Shown here piece by piece: positions 2,340 to 38,033 of a stretch of 64,000 nucleotides of DNA. The notes beneath the pieces were generated by a model. It had not been told where the DNA came from. It saw only the letters and a list, made by a program, of their open reading frames with translations, and did no database searches. The stretch is from Terrabacter sp. Root85 (GTDB lineage Bacteria; Actinomycetota; Actinomycetes; Actinomycetales; Dermatophilaceae): positions 248,001 through 312,000 of the forward strand of contig NZ_LMIW01000011.1 in the NCBI RefSeq assembly GCF_001429185.1, read 5' to 3'. How positions within the stretch are numbered: the stretch's first letter is position 1; every line of letters begins with the position of its first letter. A program made the translations under genes and the position numbers.

Positions 2340-3176
2340 TCAGGTGTGCGTGAGGACGTCGGCCCACGAGCGCGGCTCGCGGCCGAGCAACCGGCGCAGG
2401 GGAGCGGCCTCGCCCACGAGACCGCCGCGGTCGTAGGAGGCGAACATCGCCAGCAGGTCGTCGCACGCCTGGGGCGTGAGCGAGGCGCCGGGCCCGGCCA
2501 CCCACTCCGCGAGCTCCACGCGGACGGCCTCGACGGGGTGCCCGAGCACGTCGGCGGCGACGTGCGCCTGCTCGCGCACCGAGAGCACCTCGGGCCCGGC
2601 GAGGTCGTAGGTGACGCCCTCGTGCCCGGGGCGGGCCAGCACCGTCGCAGCGACCTCGGCCACGTCGTCGAGGTCGACGTTCGTGAACGGGGTGTCGAGC
2701 GAGTAGGGGACCGCGATCCGGCCGGCGTGGGCCGCATCGACGAGGTTCTGGTGGTATGCCGCCGGGCGGAGCACCGTGGCCCCCGGCAGGTGGGTGCGCA
2801 CGACCTTCTCGGCCTCCGCCTTGCGCAGATGGTGCGGCATCGACGGGTCGTGCGGGTGCAGCACCGAGTGGAACACGAATCGGGCCACGCCGGCCCGAAC
2901 TGCAGCACCGGCGACGCGGTCGGCGATGGCGACCTCGTCGGGGTGGACGTTGGGCGCCAAGTGATAGACGCCGTCGACCCCGTCGACGGCGTCGTCGAGA
3001 CCGAGCCCGGAGCCGAGGTCAACGACCGAGATCGACCGGGCCCCAGCGGCATACGCTGTCTCGGCCCGCTCCGGCGATCGCACGGCAGCGCGCACGGTGA
3101 CGCCGTGTGACGTGAGGGAGCGCGTGACGGCGCGGCCGGTCTTGCCGGCCGCGCCGATCACGAGGACCGTCGTCAC
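2340..3176 (-). CDS. NmrA-like NAD(P)-binding epimerase/reductase-family protein
   Basis: A 278-residue short-chain dehydrogenase-type protein of the NmrA/atypical SDR group. The dinucleotide-binding motif GAAGKTGRAV lies at about residues 8-17. The classic Tyr-x-x-x-Lys pair is not evident where expected, typical of NmrA-like proteins that sense or bind NAD(P) or act on quinones. The start lies 2 nt past the HyuB stop, so it is probably the last gene of the hyuA-hyuB transcript. A role in pyrimidine catabolism cannot be read from the sequence. Confidence 0.75.
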   Translation of the reverse strand: MTTVLVIGAAGKTGRAVTRSLTSHGVTVRAAVRSPERAETAYAAGARSISVVDLGSGLGLDDAVDGVDGVYHLAPNVHPDEVAIADRVAGAAVRAGVARFVFHSVLHPHDPSMPHHLRKAEAEKVVRTHLPGATVLRPAAYHQNLVDAAHAGRIAVPYSLDTPFTNVDLDDVAEVAATVLARPGHEGVTYDLAGPEVLSVREQAHVAADVLGHPVEAVRVELAEWVAGPGASLTPQACDDLLAMFASYDRGGLVGEAAPLRRLLGREPRSWADVLTHT

Positions 3177-3178
3177 GG

Positions 3179-5209
3179 TCAGACCCAGTCGACATCTGCC
3201 GCAGTCTGTCCGGCGGCGAGCGTCGCGTAGCCGGGGCCGCGGTCGAAGAAGGGCTGCTCGGCCGCGCGGTCGCCGCGCAGCTGCTCGCGCAAGGCATCCG
3301 AGGCGGCGGCGTCGATGACGGGCTCGTCGAGGTCTCCGGTGGCGACGACGCCGAAGTCGCGGCGCGCGCCCTCGAAGGAGACCTTGCCCCAGCGCAGGTC
3401 GCGCTCCACCTCGGCGTAGGGCCGGTCGAGCGGGTCGCCCCAGCCGCCGCCACCCGTGGTCCGGATGCGGATGACCTGGCCGGCCTTGACGACCTCGGCG
3501 TCGGCGAGGGCGTCGACGGTGCGCTCCTCCGGACCGCCCACGTCGACGGTGACCTCGAAGGGACGACCGGCCTTGCCGCCCTTGACGCCCCAGCAGGCGA
3601 GGATCGACCGGTCGGCGATCGACATGAAGTGGGCGTCCTTGAGCATCCGGATGTGCTTCTCGTAGCCGAGGCCACCGCGGTGCCGCCCGGCGCCGCCGGA
3701 GTCGACGGCGAGGCCGAGCCGCTCGACGATGAACGGGAACCGGCTCTCGGTGAACTCGGTCGGCAGGTTGCGGCTGTCGGGCACGACGTGGATCGTGTCC
3801 TCGCCGTCGGCGTAGTAGCGCCCACCGGAGCCGCCACCGAGCACCTCACGCATGAGGTAGTCGTTGCCGTCGCGGTCCTTGCCGTAGACGCCGGTGTAGC
3901 GGATCGTCTCCTGGTCGGCCGGCATCTTGCCGTCGACGGCCTTGGCGACGACGCCGGCGAGGACGCCGAGCAGGCGCAGGATGACGAAGGTGCGGGCGTT
4001 CGTCGGCGCGGGGTAGATCGGCGTGAGGAGCGTGCCCTTCTCGGGGAACTTCATCTCGATGAGCGGCACGATGCCCTCGTTGACGTCGAGCTCGGCCATC
4101 CGCTCGGGGGTGTCGGCGAGGTTGCGCAGGATGGGCGCGAGCCACTTCTTGAGGAAGTTGCCGCCGACGTAGTCGCCGCAGTGGTTGATCGGGCCCTTGG
4201 CCTGCGGCGCCGTGCCGGTGAAGTCGATGATCAGCTTGGGGCCGCCGTCACCGGGGCCGGGGCCGCCGGTCGACTGCTTGGTCAGGGTGATCCGCTGCGT
4301 GTGCAGCTTCGGCTCGTCGACCCCGTCGTGCTCGGCGTAGTCCTCCCAGACGTACGTGCCGTCGGGGATCTTGCTGAGGATCTCGCGGCGGTAGGTCTCG
4401 GTCGTCTTGTCGAGGATCGCGTCGAAGGCGGCCTCGATCGTGTCCCGGCCGTAACGCTCGAAGAGCTCGCCGAGGCGACGGGCTCCCATGAGGCAGGCCG
4501 AGCACTCGGCGTCGAGGTCCGCAGCGAGGCTGTCGGGCATGCGGCTGTTGCGCGTCATGATGCGCAGCGCCGCCTGGTTCGGAACTCCCTTGTCCCACAG
4601 CTTGATCGGCGGGACCGAGAGGCCCTCCTCGAAGACCGTCTGGGCGTTGCTCGGCATCGAGCCGGGGACGGCGCCACCGATGTCGTCGTGGTGGCCGAAC
4701 GCCTGGACGAAGGCGACGACCTCTCCGCCGGAGAAGACCGGCACGGTGACGCAGAGGTCCGGGAGGTGGCCGATGCCGCCCTCCGACTCGTAGACGTCGT
4801 TGTGGAAGAAGACGTCGCCCTCGCTCATCTCGTCGAGCGGGAAGTCGCGCGCGATCGGGTGCACGAGCGCGCTGTACGAGCGACCCGTCAGCTTGCGCAG
4901 CTGGCGGTCGTGGATGCCGGCGCGGAAGTCGTGGGCGTCGCGGATCATGGGGGAGCGTGACGTGCGGGCAATGGCCGTCTCGACCTCCATCTCGACGCTC
5001 GCGAGCGTGCCCTCGACGATCTCGACGAGGATCGGGTCGACGGTCGTGCCCTCGGGGGTCAGGCGGTTGCCGTGCTCGTATGCCGTGGGGAGCCCCGCAG
5101 GGTTCACCGCCGCGCCGTCGTGGGCGGCCGAGACCTCAGGGTGCTGCGAGCCGGTGGCGGCGTCGACGGGGGCGAGCCGGGTGGCCGCGGTCTGGCAGGA
5201 GAAGCACAT
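3179..5209 (-). CDS. hyuB: Hydantoinase B / oxoprolinase-family subunit
   Basis: A 676-residue HyuB-family subunit. With HyuA it forms ATP-dependent amidohydrolases or carboxylases (N-methylhydantoinase, 5-oxoprolinase, caprolactamase, acetone-type carboxylases). Family motifs include RDAHDFRAGI, HNDVYESEGGIGHLPD, DFTGTAPQAKGPIN, PAPTNARTF, DSGGAGRHRGGLG and the C-terminal TTGGGGWGDP. The ATG is 1 nt after the HyuA TGA, so the pair is translationally coupled. Unusually, about 55 residues precede the normal start of the domain (VDPILVEIVEGTL), beginning MCFSCQ with a CxxC pair. The substrate is unknown; a cyclic ureide is suggested by context only. Confidence 0.85.
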   Translation of the reverse strand: MCFSCQTAATRLAPVDAATGSQHPEVSAAHDGAAVNPAGLPTAYEHGNRLTPEGTTVDPILVEIVEGTLASVEMEVETAIARTSRSPMIRDAHDFRAGIHDRQLRKLTGRSYSALVHPIARDFPLDEMSEGDVFFHNDVYESEGGIGHLPDLCVTVPVFSGGEVVAFVQAFGHHDDIGGAVPGSMPSNAQTVFEEGLSVPPIKLWDKGVPNQAALRIMTRNSRMPDSLAADLDAECSACLMGARRLGELFERYGRDTIEAAFDAILDKTTETYRREILSKIPDGTYVWEDYAEHDGVDEPKLHTQRITLTKQSTGGPGPGDGGPKLIIDFTGTAPQAKGPINHCGDYVGGNFLKKWLAPILRNLADTPERMAELDVNEGIVPLIEMKFPEKGTLLTPIYPAPTNARTFVILRLLGVLAGVVAKAVDGKMPADQETIRYTGVYGKDRDGNDYLMREVLGGGSGGRYYADGEDTIHVVPDSRNLPTEFTESRFPFIVERLGLAVDSGGAGRHRGGLGYEKHIRMLKDAHFMSIADRSILACWGVKGGKAGRPFEVTVDVGGPEERTVDALADAEVVKAGQVIRIRTTGGGGWGDPLDRPYAEVERDLRWGKVSFEGARRDFGVVATGDLDEPVIDAAASDALREQLRGDRAAEQPFFDRGPGYATLAAGQTAADVDWV

Positions 5210-7568: not shown

Positions 7569-8009
7569 ATGGCGAAGTACCTCATCGGCGTGGACTTCCA
7601 GGCCGGCGACGACCCGGCCCCGATGTCCGACTGGACCCCGGCGGAGGTCCAGGCCCACCTCGACTACTACGAGCGGCTCGTCGGCGAGCTCGAGGCCAAC
7701 GGCGAGCTCGTCTCGTCGACGATCCTCACGGGCCCCGACCTCGCCAAGATCGTCCGGTCCGACGGCGCGGCGCCGGTCGTCACCGACGGACCGTTCCAGG
7801 AGTTCAAGGAGTGGCTCGCCGGCTTCCAGGTCGTCGAGGTCGACTCGGAGGAGCGCGCCCTCGAGATCGCGTCGCTCATGTCGGCGGTGCCGGGGCGCGG
7901 TGGCGTGCCCACCCGGCAGCCGATCCACGTGCGCCAGGTCATGGAGGAGGCGCCCGCGAACACCGACGAGATGGACGCCTTCCTGCGCACCGCGGGCGGC
8001 ACCCGCTGA
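7569..8009 (+). CDS. DGPF/YCII-related protein, partner of the ECF42 sigma factor
   Basis: A 146-residue YCII-related protein carrying the DGPF signature (residues 73-76, in VTDGPFQEFKEWLAGF). Such small proteins are encoded next to ECF42 sigma factors; their biochemical role is not settled. The ATG follows AAGGAG with a 10-nt spacer. The TGA overlaps the apparent CTG start of the sigma factor gene, so the two are cotranscribed and probably coupled. Confidence 0.85.
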   Translation: MAKYLIGVDFQAGDDPAPMSDWTPAEVQAHLDYYERLVGELEANGELVSSTILTGPDLAKIVRSDGAAPVVTDGPFQEFKEWLAGFQVVEVDSEERALEIASLMSAVPGRGGVPTRQPIHVRQVMEEAPANTDEMDAFLRTAGGTR

Positions 8010-9226
8010 CCTCTGCACCCGCCGTCGACGACCTGCTGCGCACGCTCGCGCCGCAGGTCGTCGGCATCGTCAGCCGCCGGTTCGGCGACTTCGACTCCGC
8101 CGAGGACGCCGTCCAGGAGGCACTGCTCGTCGCAGCCCGGCGCTGGCCCGTCGACGGGCTTCCGGACGAGCCGCGTGCCTGGCTCGTCACGACCGCCTCG
8201 CGGCGGCTCGTGGACCTGTGGCGCAGTGACGCGGCCCGGCGCGAGCGCGAGGCGCGCGTCATCGCCTGGGAGGTCCCGGCACACGACGCCGTCGACCACG
8301 ACGACAGCCTCACGGTCCTCTTCCTCTGCTGCCACCCGTCGCTGACCCCGGCCTCGGCGATCGCGCTGACGCTGCGCGCCGTCGGCGGTCTGACGACCGC
8401 CGAGATCGCCCAGGCCTTCCTCGTGCCGGAGGCGACGATGGCACAGCGGATCAGCCGCGCCAAGGCCACGATCCGCGCCTCCGGCGCAGGCTTTCGTATG
8501 CCGTCCGGTGCTGACCGCGAGGAGCGTGCCCGCTCCGTGCTCCACGTCCTCTACCTCGTCTTCAACGAGGGCTACGCGAGCACCCACGGCGACACGCTGC
8601 AGCGGACCTCACTGTCCCGCGAAGCGATCCGGCTGACGCGGATGCTCGTCGACGGGTCTCCCGACCACCCCGAGGCCCTGGGCCTGCTGTCGCTCATGCT
8701 GCTGCTCGAGGCGCGCACCCCGGCGCGCAGCGACGCCTCGGGAGCGCTCGTGCCGTTGCCCGACCAGGACCGCTCGAGGTGGGACGTCTCGCTCGTGGCC
8801 GAGGGGCTCGACCTGCTCGGCCGGGCCATGGCGCTCGGGGCCGTCGGGGAGTACCAGCTGCAGGCCGCCATCGCCGCGGTCCACGACCGGGCGCCGACCG
8901 CCGCGGACACCGACTGGGACGAGATCCTCTCGCTCTACGTGCTGCTCGAGCAGGTCACCGGCAACCCGGTGGTCACGCTCAACCGGGCCGTGGCGGTGGC
9001 CATGGCGCAGGGCCCGGAGGCTGCCCTCGCTGTCGTCGACGAGGTCGAGGACCGGCTGGGCACGACGCACCGCTGGCTCGCGGTGCGCGGGCAGCTGCTC
9101 GAGATGGCGGGCGACGCGGGCCCGGCTGCCGACCTGCTCGACCGCGCGGCGGCGACCGCGACGAACGAGGCGGAGCGTCGGCACCTCGCCGCCCGAGCCG
9201 CTCGACTGCGCTCGCCCCAGCCGTGA
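8006..9226 (+). CDS. RNA polymerase sigma factor, ECF42 type with C-terminal TPR-like extension
   Basis: A 406-residue ECF sigma factor. Region 2 spans about residues 10-78 (FDSAEDAVQEALLVAARRW) and region 4 about 100-165 (GLTTAEIAQAFLVPEATMAQRISRAKA). A DUF6596-type segment follows (VLYLVFNEGYASTHGD), then a TPR-like C-terminus (EQVTGNPVVTLNRAVAVA). The long extension and the DGPF neighbour identify ECF42, which has no classical anti-sigma factor. No in-frame ATG, GTG or TTG lies just before region 2, so the best start is CTG at 8006, overlapping the preceding stop as CTGA. The start is therefore uncertain, the product is not. A hairpin overlaps the stop codon. Confidence 0.88.
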   Translation: MTSAPAVDDLLRTLAPQVVGIVSRRFGDFDSAEDAVQEALLVAARRWPVDGLPDEPRAWLVTTASRRLVDLWRSDAARREREARVIAWEVPAHDAVDHDDSLTVLFLCCHPSLTPASAIALTLRAVGGLTTAEIAQAFLVPEATMAQRISRAKATIRASGAGFRMPSGADREERARSVLHVLYLVFNEGYASTHGDTLQRTSLSREAIRLTRMLVDGSPDHPEALGLLSLMLLLEARTPARSDASGALVPLPDQDRSRWDVSLVAEGLDLLGRAMALGAVGEYQLQAAIAAVHDRAPTAADTDWDEILSLYVLLEQVTGNPVVTLNRAVAVAMAQGPEAALAVVDEVEDRLGTTHRWLAVRGQLLEMAGDAGPAADLLDRAAATATNEAERRHLAARAARLRSPQP

Positions 9227-9371: not shown

Positions 9372-10391
9372 ATGGACGAGACCACGGCAGGCGGGACGGA
9401 CGAGACCGTCGTGCGCTATGAGCCGCTCACGGCCTCGGACCTCGCCGAGCTGGTGCTCGGTCTGGCCGCGGTCGGGGTCGAGACCGTCGGCCGCGTCGTC
9501 GAGGCGATCCGGCCACCGACGCTGGTCACGGCCGTCGTCAAGGCTCCGCTGACCGCGGCCCTGACCGACCTGGGCTCCAAGCTTCGGCGCGCGGACTGGT
9601 CGCAGGAGCTGCTCCGTCGTGGGCACTCGCGACGGGGCGAGCTGGGTCGACGCGTCGAGGTGACGGCCCAACGGGTGGCCGCGGCCGTCGTCGAGGCAGT
9701 GCTCGACGTCGTGGACCTCACCGACATCGTCGTCGACCACGTCGACCTCGACGCGGTCGTGAGCACCGTGGACCTCGACCGTGCCGTCTCTCGGGTCGAC
9801 ATCGACGCCATCGTCTCTCGGGTCGACATCGACGCGATCGTCTCCCGGGTCGACGTCGACGCCATCGTCGAGCGGCTCGACATCGACGGGATCGTCGCCC
9901 GGGTGGACCTCGACCGGGCGGTGTCCAGGGTCGACATCGGGGCGGTCATCGAGCGGCTCGACATCGACGGGATCGTCGCCCGGGTGGACCTCGACCGTGC
10001 CGTCTCGGGTGTGGACATCGACGCGATCGTCGGCCGGGTCGACATCGACGCCATCGCCGCCCGCATCGACCTCGACGCGATCCTGGACCGGGTCGACGTC
10101 AACGCCGTCGCACAGCGGCTGGACCTCGACGCCGTCGTGGGCAGACTCGATCTCATCGGCCTCGCCGAGTACGTCGTCGAGGAGATCGACCTCCCCGGCA
10201 TCATCCAGAGCTCGTCCGGGGCCATGGCCTCAGAGGGCATGCGCGAGGTGCGCTGGCAGGGCGTCGGGGCCGACGAGCGCGTCGCGCACGTCGTCGACCG
10301 GATGCTCCGGCGCAGGCCGAGGGCGCCGGGTCCGGGCGTTCCTGCCACCGAGATCGCCACCCGACCCGTGATCCCCGGGTCAGCCGGATGA
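9372..10391 (+). CDS. Protein with sixteen tandem 9-residue repeats (RVDIDAIVS type), unknown function
   Basis: A 339-residue protein. Residues 1-122 are a helical, Ala/Val-rich region. Residues 123-266 are sixteen uninterrupted nonapeptide repeats with consensus R-(V/L)-D-(I/L)-D-(A/R)-(I/A)-V-(S/A), that is RVDIDAIVS, RVDLDRAVS or RLDIDGIVA. Residues 267-339 are a basic, Pro-containing tail. There is no signal peptide or clear transmembrane helix. The pattern of alternating hydrophobic and Asp residues could give a solenoid or a membrane-surface amphipathic array (inference). The RDD membrane protein gene begins 14 nt downstream, so the two probably act together. No known activity can be assigned. 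Confidence 0.8.
   Translation: MDETTAGGTDETVVRYEPLTASDLAELVLGLAAVGVETVGRVVEAIRPPTLVTAVVKAPLTAALTDLGSKLRRADWSQELLRRGHSRRGELGRRVEVTAQRVAAAVVEAVLDVVDLTDIVVDHVDLDAVVSTVDLDRAVSRVDIDAIVSRVDIDAIVSRVDVDAIVERLDIDGIVARVDLDRAVSRVDIGAVIERLDIDGIVARVDLDRAVSGVDIDAIVGRVDIDAIAARIDLDAILDRVDVNAVAQRLDLDAVVGRLDLIGLAEYVVEEIDLPGIIQSSSGAMASEGMREVRWQGVGADERVAHVVDRMLRRRPRAPGPGVPATEIATRPVIPGSAG
9738..10169 (+). repeat. 27-bp coding tandem repeat array (16 units)
   Basis: The DNA counterpart of the nonapeptide array. Units are diverged at third positions but stay in register, so expansion is old or under protein-level selection. Two 54-bp blocks (units 6-7 and 9-10, both RLDIDGIVA then RVDLDRAVS) are nearly identical and suggest block duplication. 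Confidence 0.85.
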
Positions 10392-10404
10392 ACGGCGCGG
10401 CGCC

Positions 10405-10962
10405 ATGACGTCACCGTCGCGCCCCGGCCGGGACCCGGTGTCCCGGATCGTCCTGCCCGGCCCGGCCCGTTCGGTCCAGGGGCACCGCGCCGGCATCGTC
10501 ACGCGGGTGGCCGCCGGAGCCGTCGACCTCGTCGTCGCCCTCCTCGGCGTCGCCCTCATGTATGCCGCGTGGGCGGGCACGATCTTCCTGCTCGGTCCGC
10601 AGTCCTTCCACTTCCCCGACCCCGGCGGCCTGCGACTGCTCCTGCTCGTGCTCGGGCTGCTCACGGCATACCTCACCGTCGCGTGGGCCACGACGGGCCG
10701 CACCTTCGGCAACCGCCTGCTCGGCCTTCGGGTCGTCGACGACGGCGGGCGCACGATCGGTCTCGCACGGGCCTTCTTGCGTGCCGCGGCGTGCGTCATG
10801 TTCCCGATCGTCCTCTTCTGGGTCGTCGTCAGCCGCGAGAACCGGTCGCTACCGGACATCCTGCTGCGCACGTCCGTCGTCTACGACTGGACGTCCAACG
10901 CAGGCCGGGGTCACGAGCCCACGTCGACCCCACGGGCGATCGTGCTGCCCCCGGAGGACTGA
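10405..10962 (+). CDS. RDD family membrane protein
   Basis: A 185-residue integral membrane protein with the RDD layout: about 30 cytosolic residues, a first helix (VAAGAVDLVVALLGVALMYA), a second helix around residues 75-93 (LLLLVLGLLTAYL) and a third near 130-147 (VMFPIVLFWVVV). The conserved TFGNRLLGLRVV motif lies between helices two and three. RDD proteins have been linked to ion transport or to holding partners at the membrane, with no fixed function. It follows the nonapeptide-repeat gene closely, which suggests a two-gene operon. The 80 nt after it carry short GGATCGGCGCC direct repeats. Confidence 0.88.
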   Translation: MTSPSRPGRDPVSRIVLPGPARSVQGHRAGIVTRVAAGAVDLVVALLGVALMYAAWAGTIFLLGPQSFHFPDPGGLRLLLLVLGLLTAYLTVAWATTGRTFGNRLLGLRVVDDGGRTIGLARAFLRAAACVMFPIVLFWVVVSRENRSLPDILLRTSVVYDWTSNAGRGHEPTSTPRAIVLPPED

Positions 10963-36116: not shown

Positions 36117-37150
36117 TCACGCCGGGTCGGTGCCCGGGGCGCGGTCGCGGTTGTGGCGGGCCTTCGCTGCCTTGTCGGCTTCCTCTGCCTTGGCCGCCAG
36201 GGTCGCGTCGCGGTACCACTGGGGCAGCGGATCGGCGCGGACCGCTCGGGGCGCCATCACGGTGCCGTCGCAGTCGTACTGTCGGCGACCCAGCAGCTCG
36301 GGCAGCACGGTCATCGCGCGCTCGAGGGCGTGGGCGAGCGTGCCGTCCTTCGGGGTGGGCTCGCGGACGAAGCCGAGGGTGTCCTGGCGCAGCAGCGGAC
36401 GGATCGCGTCGAGGCGGGTCCAGAACATCGTCCCGGCGAAGAAGCCGAGCTCCCTCGGGTCGTCGAGCCGGGACAACGCCTCGGGCGTCACAGCCGGCTC
36501 GACGAGGCGGCGGACGGTGTCGGCGTTGCCGGCCCAGTAGGTGGAGAGGGCGAAGTAGCTGCCTCGGGGGCCGATGACCCCGGTGTGGAGCAGTGCAGCA
36601 CCTCGACGAGCTCCGCCAGGGCCGCCGGGTCGGTGGGGACGAGCTGCTCGACCATCTGGTCGCGCCAGACGTCGCCGGCGCCGAAGTGGAGCGACTTCTT
36701 GGCGTGGATCTTGAGGGCTGCGACGTAGCCGCGGTCGGCGAGGTGCTCGGCCACCACGAGGAAGGGCAGGACGTCGCGGCCCCGGTTGGGCACGGTGACG
36801 CACCGTGTGCCGGGCAGGGCTGCCTCGATCTCGGGCGCGAGGTGGGAGTGCTGTCGGGGGAGCGTGACGTAGAGGTCGACTCCCGCGTGGGCGAGGCGCT
36901 CGAGTGACGGCACGAGGGCGGGCCACACATCGGCGTAGTAGAGGTGCAGGACGGCAGCCGTGTCGCCGGTCCGGGGTCGGCCGCGAGGGCCGCGACGGTC
37001 GAGGCGGTCGAGGCGGTCGAGGCGGTCGAGGTGACGACGGGCGGCGCGCACCGCCAGCACGTCCCGCAGGTCGGTGCGCTGTTCGCGGAGGCGAGCGCGC
37101 ACCGGACGCAGGCGTCGACGGATCCGACGGCCGAGAGTGGGGCGGGGCAT
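36117..37150 (-). pseudogene. RgpF-like rhamnan synthesis protein gene with a frameshift
   Basis: The first part of the protein (VLHLYYADVWPALVPSLERL, VTVPNRGRDVLPFLVV, ALKIHAKKSLHFG) matches the RgpF/rhamnan-synthesis-F family. Homology then continues in a different frame (TGVIGPRGSYFALSTYW, LGFFAGTMFWTR). The switch falls within 36591-36600, where reading CTG-CA-CTG needs one extra base. Either the gene is broken or the sequence has a one-base error. ATG at 37150 has AGGAG upstream. It is the third gene of the satD transcript, 40 nt after the DUF3307-like gene. A 9-nt minisatellite encodes LDRLDRLDRLDR near its N-terminus. Confidence 0.75.
36997..37032 (-). repeat. 9-nt tandem repeat in the rgpF-like gene
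   Basis: About four copies of GAGGCGGTC, coding Leu-Asp-Arg triplets. Copy-number change would keep the frame. Confidence 0.7.
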
Positions 37151-37190
37151 GTCTCTCCTGCGCAGGCGTGTGGGAGGGCGGGGGGACGGC

Positions 37191-38033
37191 TCAGACGGTG
37201 AGGGCGAGCGACCCGAGGGCGATGAGCCAGCTGACGAAACTGCCGACGAGGAAGTACTCGGTGACGTCGTCGATGCCGGCGGGGCCGCCCGGGTAGGAGC
37301 CCGTCCCGGTGGGGTCGCCGCTCGCCGAGCGGGCGGCGGCCTGTATCTCGGGGAAACGGAGCAGTCCCTTGGCGGCGATGACGAGGCCGGCAGCGCCGAA
37401 CTCGCCGGCCACGCCGAGGCCGAGGATGACGAGGCGCTCCATGGGCCCGAGCAGGCGCCCGCCCTTGAGGCGGTCGGCGGGCTGGCCGCTGGTCGGCGGA
37501 GCAGCACGCCCCGTGAGGGAGGCGGCGGCCGCGGCGGCTGCGTTGGCGTTGGTGACGTCGGACGGGCGCAGGGCCCCGATGGTGAGCAGGACGAGGCGCA
37601 CGATGACGTTGGCCGTCGCGACGTTGAAGAGGACGAGCCCGGTGAGGAGCAGGACCCGCCCGACAGGGAGCGGACCGGTGCCCGGGAGGTCGGCCCAGCC
37701 GAGCCACGTCGCGAGCGCGCCGCCCGCCGGCGACGCTGCCCCGGAGAAGGCGAGGAGACCGACGACGAGGGCCGCGAAGACGGCCAGCGGCGCGAGAGCG
37801 CCCCGACCCGTCATCTGGGTGCGACGCGACAGCTCGGCCCATCCGGCCCCGGCGACGGCGGCGAGGGCGAGAGCGAGCAGGTCAGCCCAACCGTGCATCC
37901 CGGCCACGAGCGCGAGGCCGAGGATGACGACCGGGGCGGCCACGTGCCCGACGGCCCGGCCGGGTCGCCACGACGTCGACCGGACGATGTCGCCGACGCC
38001 GATGCCGGCGAGGACGATCGACAGCCACGTCAC
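37191..38033 (-). CDS. DUF3307-like membrane protein paired with SatD
   Basis: A 280-residue membrane protein with about seven hydrophobic segments. The C-terminal part (PMERLVILGLGVAGEFGAAG, LVIAAKGLLRFPEIQ and EYFLVGSFVSWLIAL) matches DUF3307 proteins, which regularly sit next to satD genes. Their function is unknown. The start overlaps the satD stop as ATGA, so the two are translationally coupled. Confidence 0.7.
   Translation of the reverse strand: MTWLSIVLAGIGVGDIVRSTSWRPGRAVGHVAAPVVILGLALVAGMHGWADLLALALAAVAGAGWAELSRRTQMTGRGALAPLAVFAALVVGLLAFSGAASPAGGALATWLGWADLPGTGPLPVGRVLLLTGLVLFNVATANVIVRLVLLTIGALRPSDVTNANAAAAAAASLTGRAAPPTSGQPADRLKGGRLLGPMERLVILGLGVAGEFGAAGLVIAAKGLLRFPEIQAAARSASGDPTGTGSYPGGPAGIDDVTEYFLVGSFVSWLIALGSLALTV

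Follow-up and report, generated by a model that had tools for sequence, protein, structure and literature searches.

RDD-family membrane proteins are described in excerpts from PMC5996927 as having a conserved Arg at the start of the first transmembrane segment (TM1), a conserved Asp in the middle of TM1 and a second conserved Asp later in the chain. In the published literature the function of the family is unsettled. The RDD protein of Halobacillus andaensis is reported in the same excerpts to be a Na+(Li+,K+)/H+ antiporter (PMC5996927), the Bacillus subtilis protein SppI is presented in part of PMC7568657 as an RDD-family inhibitor of the protease SppA, and a passage of the lipocone paper suggests that RDD may have a binding site facing the cytoplasm (PMC12419801). 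Tandem nine-residue units are known from the RTX repeats, which form a parallel beta-roll with bound Ca2+. The RTX consensus is given as GGxG(N/D)Dx(L/I/F)x in an excerpt of PMC7354457.

The window (the whole stretch of 64,000 nucleotides of Terrabacter sp. Root85 that was analysed) carries on its plus strand an RDD gene preceded by a gene for a nine-residue repeat protein. Terrabacter is placed in the Intrasporangiaceae, Actinomycetota, and among named relatives the nearest are Terracoccus and Terrabacter genomes. The repeat ORF is at 9372–10391, starts with ATG and encodes 339 aa. The RDD gene (10405–10962) starts 13 nt past it and encodes 185 aa; its product matches PF06271 with an E value of 2.1e-14 and a score of 54.4 bits against a cut-off of 24.1. 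The Kyte-Doolittle profile of the protein rises above 1.6 in three places (19-residue windows with starts at residues 29–46, 74–80 and 118–127), which on hydropathy only are read as transmembrane segments. When the protein is aligned with 44 partners from related loci, R34 is kept in 45/45, D41 in 44/45 and D151 in 45/45; these positions are in the protein's own numbering, and the residues published for the antiporter are R124, R129, D154 and D158. The profile score, the Arg/Asp/Asp residues and the three hydrophobic stretches are the features expected of an RDD protein. A sequence match to the RDD protein was not found in the PDB.

The repeat protein can be divided into four parts. Residues 1–122 (9372–9737) form an N-terminal region that varies among relatives in alignment A1 and runs into an imperfect unit at about residues 113–122. 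The array itself, residues 123–266 (9738–10169), consists of exactly 16 nonamers with zero indels and the consensus R-V-D-[IVL]-D-A-[IVL]-V-x. Asp is at position 3 in all 16 units and at position 5 in 13 (units 8, 14 and 16 carry G, N and I). Lag-9 identities over the whole protein number 89, and those at lags 18 and 27 number 79 and 82, respectively; when the residues were shuffled 20,000 times, the lag-9 count reached 56 at most. At the DNA level, Tandem Repeats Finder reports the array with periods of 27, 54 and 81, in rows that cover 9741–10138. Units 6–7 (9873–9926) are identical in protein to units 9–10 (9954–10007); the DNA agrees at 50/54 nt and unit 6 matches unit 9 at 27/27. The same duplication is present in two relatives, Terracoccus sp. 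273MFTsu3.1 (L003) and Terrabacter sp. Ter38 (L004). The first-pass annotation had described sixteen in-register nonapeptides with an Asp-hydrophobic pattern and a block copy between units 6–7 and 9–10, and all three descriptions hold. Elsewhere in the window, four perfect 9-bp copies at 36996–37031 are read as LDR tripeptides in the minus-strand ORF 36488–37507.

The array is followed by a C-terminal domain of about 45 residues with a basic end (residues 267–315; 10170–10316), and by a variable tail with the stop codon (10317–10391). Within the domain a small-residue S/T/G motif is followed by R and Q or comparable residues, and these by D and the basic end. S281, G283, M285, A286, S287, R294, G297, A300, D301 and E302, among others, are invariant in the family alignment (n=14). 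In a wider comparison the S/T/G motif was located at the expected place in 34 of 46 rows, and in 12, some of which are contig ends, the search placed it wrongly or not at all; the placement search itself used this motif as its target. In the fused ORFs that were read, the domain sits between the array and RDD.

Substitutions are distributed unevenly over these parts. Uncorrected pN/pS, with L003 and L004 as references, is 0.010/0.111 for the array against either genome, and 0.009/0.25 (L003) and 0/0.111 (L004) for the C-terminal domain. The N-terminal region gives 0.043/0.102 and 0.064/0.153, and the tail 0.122/0.529 and 0.143/0.259, for L003 and L004, respectively. The constrained parts of the repeat protein, as read from these sequence comparisons, are the array and the C-terminal domain.

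Relatives are spread across the phylum. The initial family search matched 27 of 149 genomes, including the window's own; 15 were taken with wider flanks, three are the genomes of L003–L005, and eight were set aside. A phylum search with alignment A1 matched 29 of 396 genomes. An array-only profile (A3, built from 27 segments), of the kind the first-pass annotation had proposed, matched 19 of 149 family, 55 of 394 class and 27 of 396 phylum genomes, counting weak matches with E values of up to 1e-3, in samples that overlap. These array counts may be underestimates, as up to five candidates were scored per genome in the A1 phylum search, up to 16 in the array-only phylum search and up to 17 in the class search. 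In the window's own genome, three RDD genes score above the Pfam cut-off, but the array profile matches at a single gene, the 9372–10391 ORF. A search of IMG/VR gave 13 pattern stretches, zero of which are relatives, and the plasmid search gave no match. In each of two genomes, G042 (L047/L046) and G082 (L050/L231), two contigs stop within an array. Assemblies probably break in the array repeats, and therefore the surveys may undercount them.

Seven weak or odd matches were checked; RDD was found in none of them, and the ORFs read were other than the nine-residue repeat. The match in G060 (E 2.4e-12; L233) is a minus-strand ORF of 805 aa with a different, 10-residue Asp-rich repeat of the VDLDADAPS type after an N-terminal hydrophobic stretch, with no RDD nearby. 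G098 has another repeat and no RDD match, and G127 has neither an array nor an RDD profile match. G049 (E 6.7e-4 in the array-only family search) proved unrelated on reading and lacks an RDD match; G425 and G448, from the A1 phylum search, appear by eye to be unrelated enzymes, likewise with no RDD match, and G492, from the array-only phylum search, is a long acidic low-complexity ORF, again with no RDD match. The locus sets exclude the matches in G047, G066, G080, G093 and G145, whose E values range from 1.1e-4 to 6.5e-4.

The association with RDD was assessed in two sets of loci. In the first (n=46; L003–L005, L035–L050 and L084–L110), RDD is directly downstream on the same strand in 33, array and RDD are encoded in one ORF in 11, and two are at contig ends (L047 and L050). 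RDD is thus adjacent or fused in 44/46. The gap of the split pairs, with start codons chosen as those nearest the stop, is –8 to +28 nt in the 32 of 33 cases where it could be measured, and 13 pairs overlap by 4 nt. The further set (n=53) comprises 51 class-search loci from 50 previously unseen genomes and two extra family loci. RDD is adjacent in 42 and fused in 8 (50/53); a locus counted as adjacent when an RDD domain followed the array on the same strand at a distance of up to 1,500 nt. These loci were found with an array profile built from 26 first-set loci and the window, and for the RDD profile the window was combined with the first set. Between the end of the repeat ORF and an adjacent RDD, the distances observed are –42 to +60 nt. 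Three of its loci lack RDD. Two of these, L225 and L232, are unrelated ORFs on reading; L232 (G067:C4, ORF 2496–3623, plus strand) has a 10-residue repeat of the RGSVDGLVAR type, with no RDD nearby. The third, L186, is a genuine array of about four units with a decayed C-terminal domain, and RDD is absent from the stretch fetched. In fused ORFs from both sets RDD follows the array in 19/19.

From the pairing at this single locus the first-pass annotation had suggested a membrane-associated module, and it had proposed a genome survey of the co-occurrence; the two locus sets make the pairing stronger than one locus could. Gene fusion and conserved adjacency are strong evidence for a functional partnership, and the array protein and the RDD protein very likely work together. 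The surrounding genes are otherwise different. A neighbour scan of 30 + 5 flank proteins found few families common to two or three loci: glycoside hydrolase 15 (L043, L044), MFS (L045, L049), molybdopterin oxidoreductase (L084, L105) and a DUF6596 sigma factor (the window, L036, L037). All are too rare to explain the module. In the window, a YCII-domain gene and, after it, the gene of an ECF-type sigma factor carrying DUF6596 occupy 7569–9226, and the same kind of sigma gene is upstream of the array gene at L036 and L037.

Statistics over 467 units give a picture of the single repeat. Position 3 is Asp in 93% of them and position 1 is Arg in 75%, with aliphatic residues at positions 2, 4, 7 and 8 in most. 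These frequencies are partly selected, because the unit finder rewarded Asp 3, Pro at 4, hydrophobic residues at 2, 4, 7 and 8, and polar ones at 1 and 5; moreover, tandem units are not independent. The longest uninterrupted run ranges from 1 to 26 units over 47 sequences, a few of which are cut by contig ends. The 43 Pro residues are at position 3 (3), 4 (20), 5 (10) and 6 (10), with zero at 7, 8, 9, 1 and 2; the absence from 9 and the presence at 5 and 6 are outside the finder's scoring. A helix accepts proline within its first turn but not further along. The restriction to positions 3–6 therefore fits a helix that starts after Asp 3.

Structure prediction of the array alone, which the first-pass annotation had proposed, points the same way. 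An AlphaFold model of a 10-unit window segment (29 alignment rows) has one helix in each of the ten units (residues 4–10, 13–19, 22–28 and onward), and 7/10 begin at position 4 and extend to position 1 of the following unit; the mean pLDDT is 65 (35–54 in the other four models) and the pTM 0.22. The full-length model (pLDDT 42) was not used for geometry. Fifteen unit helices computed from the sequence have hydrophobic moments of 1.57–2.45 with directions within about 30 degrees, and one continuous helix through the array has a moment of 0.07. As the unit moments share a direction, the hydrophobic face belongs to the individual unit, and a continuous helix would average it out. These data support a two-turn predicted helix per unit, capped by the near-invariant Asp 3. 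Variants of the unit are also seen. L043 has 10-residue units, and the arrays of L040, L039 and L037 show an apparent two-unit (18-residue) alternation, e.g. RVDVDAVVA-RADLDRVIE. At L109 (G508, ORF 2564–3613, plus strand) units of about 14 residues occur with a similar C-terminal domain and RDD downstream; they may represent the repeat with a lengthened helix, and extended helices fit this length better than beta coils.

The first-pass annotation recognised no named repeat family, and a match to a known family of assigned structure was sought in Pfam, NCBIfam and the PDB; apart from one weak resemblance in Pfam, none was found. The full-length repeat protein has no matching model in Pfam or NCBIfam at E up to 10. 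Among PDB sequences the array has no match, the single row (E 0.4) falling outside it. The weak resemblance is to DUF3618 (PF12277), which 12 of the 27 array segments match with E values of 4.9e-5 at best; the window's own segment is not among them. A search of PMC literature, including four literal unit strings, found no recognisable description of the repeat. The array is, on sequence grounds, a recurring actinobacterial module, an uncatalogued repeat attached to the known RDD family.

Several other readings of the array have to be weighed. That the frame is GC-rich simple-sequence DNA open by chance, or that the true gene is on the other strand, where an ORF at 9416–10414 covers the same DNA, is almost certainly wrong: the plus frame shows amino-acid constraint, and homologues across the phylum have the same frame with RDD downstream, which together contradict it. 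A beta-solenoid or beta-roll of RTX-like nine-residue half-turns, perhaps binding cations through its many Asp residues, would account for the unit length of nine, for the 33 acidic among the 144 array residues and for a coherent hydrophobic moment of 1.63 at the beta-like angle of 160 degrees. It is distinctly improbable nonetheless, in view of the Pro positions (43/43 at 3–6), the AlphaFold helix in every unit, the lack of any match in Pfam up to an E value of 10, and unit lengths that are not constant (10 residues at L043, about 14 at L109). The array also has no conserved Gly (the highest frequency is 9%, at position 6), unlike the RTX consensus as excerpted from PMC7354457. As the 467-unit frequencies do not show that consensus, and Pfam gives no match, the array was not assigned to RTX.

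The units might also lie on the membrane as a carpet of short amphipathic helices, sensing or coating it, with RDD as anchor. In 15/15 computed unit helices a strong hydrophobic face points the same way, and a membrane partner is nearly always there, both of which would fit this, but the window array has a net charge of –17 (33 D/E, 16 K/R), unfavourable for anionic membranes, and the hydrophobic faces could equally pack against each other; we regard a carpet as unlikely. The array could also be a passive spacer with no binding role, its length drifting freely, as the range of run lengths would allow. Low array pN/pS and the similarity of units across the phylum speak against this, and it seems rather improbable.

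The reading we favour, with a probability of about 0.58, is that the repeat protein is a cytoplasmic helical-repeat arm which, via its C-terminal domain, takes part in assembling or regulating the RDD protein. The gene would encode a soluble partner of the RDD membrane protein. Asp 3 would cap the start of each helix, positions 4, 7 and 8 would form much of the hydrophobic face, and Arg 1 would be near the end; two residues would join successive units, and unit number would shift by unit and block duplication. The conserved C-terminal domain would sit directly before the first RDD transmembrane segment, also in split forms, where the two proteins would be in contact. The array is placed in the cytoplasm because the RDD N-terminus is basic, the repeat protein has no obvious signal peptide by eye, and the order in fused ORFs is as described. 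From there the arm may act through the C-terminal domain in RDD assembly or regulation, and the output would be RDD's own activity, published for one RDD protein as cation antiport. Counting against such an arm are L186, with no RDD, the modest model scores and the coherent beta-like moment. More tentatively, the array might be a minimal helical solenoid of a new class, in which every nine residues form one Asp-capped helix of two turns and duplication adds to the length. Across Actinomycetota it might then act as the ruler, or as the docking arm, of an RDD transporter or receptor dedicated to it. The findings give a poorly understood membrane protein family a specific partner, and natural fusions show which two parts belong together. 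In addition, they provide a tandem repeat whose length and cap pattern are quickly testable; Pfam and NCBIfam gave no match to the protein as a whole, and the PDB gave none to the array.

In alpha-solenoid proteins, helical units in tandem pack to give a regular superhelix; the AlphaFold model of the array has helical units but a pTM of 0.22, and Foldseek gave 0 matches for that model in the PDB at E up to 10. With RTX nonapeptides it shares the nine-residue length and the richness in Asp, but differs in having no Gly signature, in its Pro residues at 3–6, in its predicted helices and in that no signal peptide is evident by eye. Known RDD proteins likewise have PF06271, the R/D/D residues and three hydrophobic stretches, as does the window's RDD partner, whereas the excerpts describing the H. 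andaensis protein and SppI mention neither an array nor a C-terminal domain of the window kind. RDD joined to another module in one chain is described in excerpts on VanZ-RDD (PMC12419801) and on Mas-RDD of mce operons (PMC1810536). In those fusions, as far as the excerpts describe them, the partners are VanZ or Mas domains; here the partner is a nine-residue array with a domain of its own.
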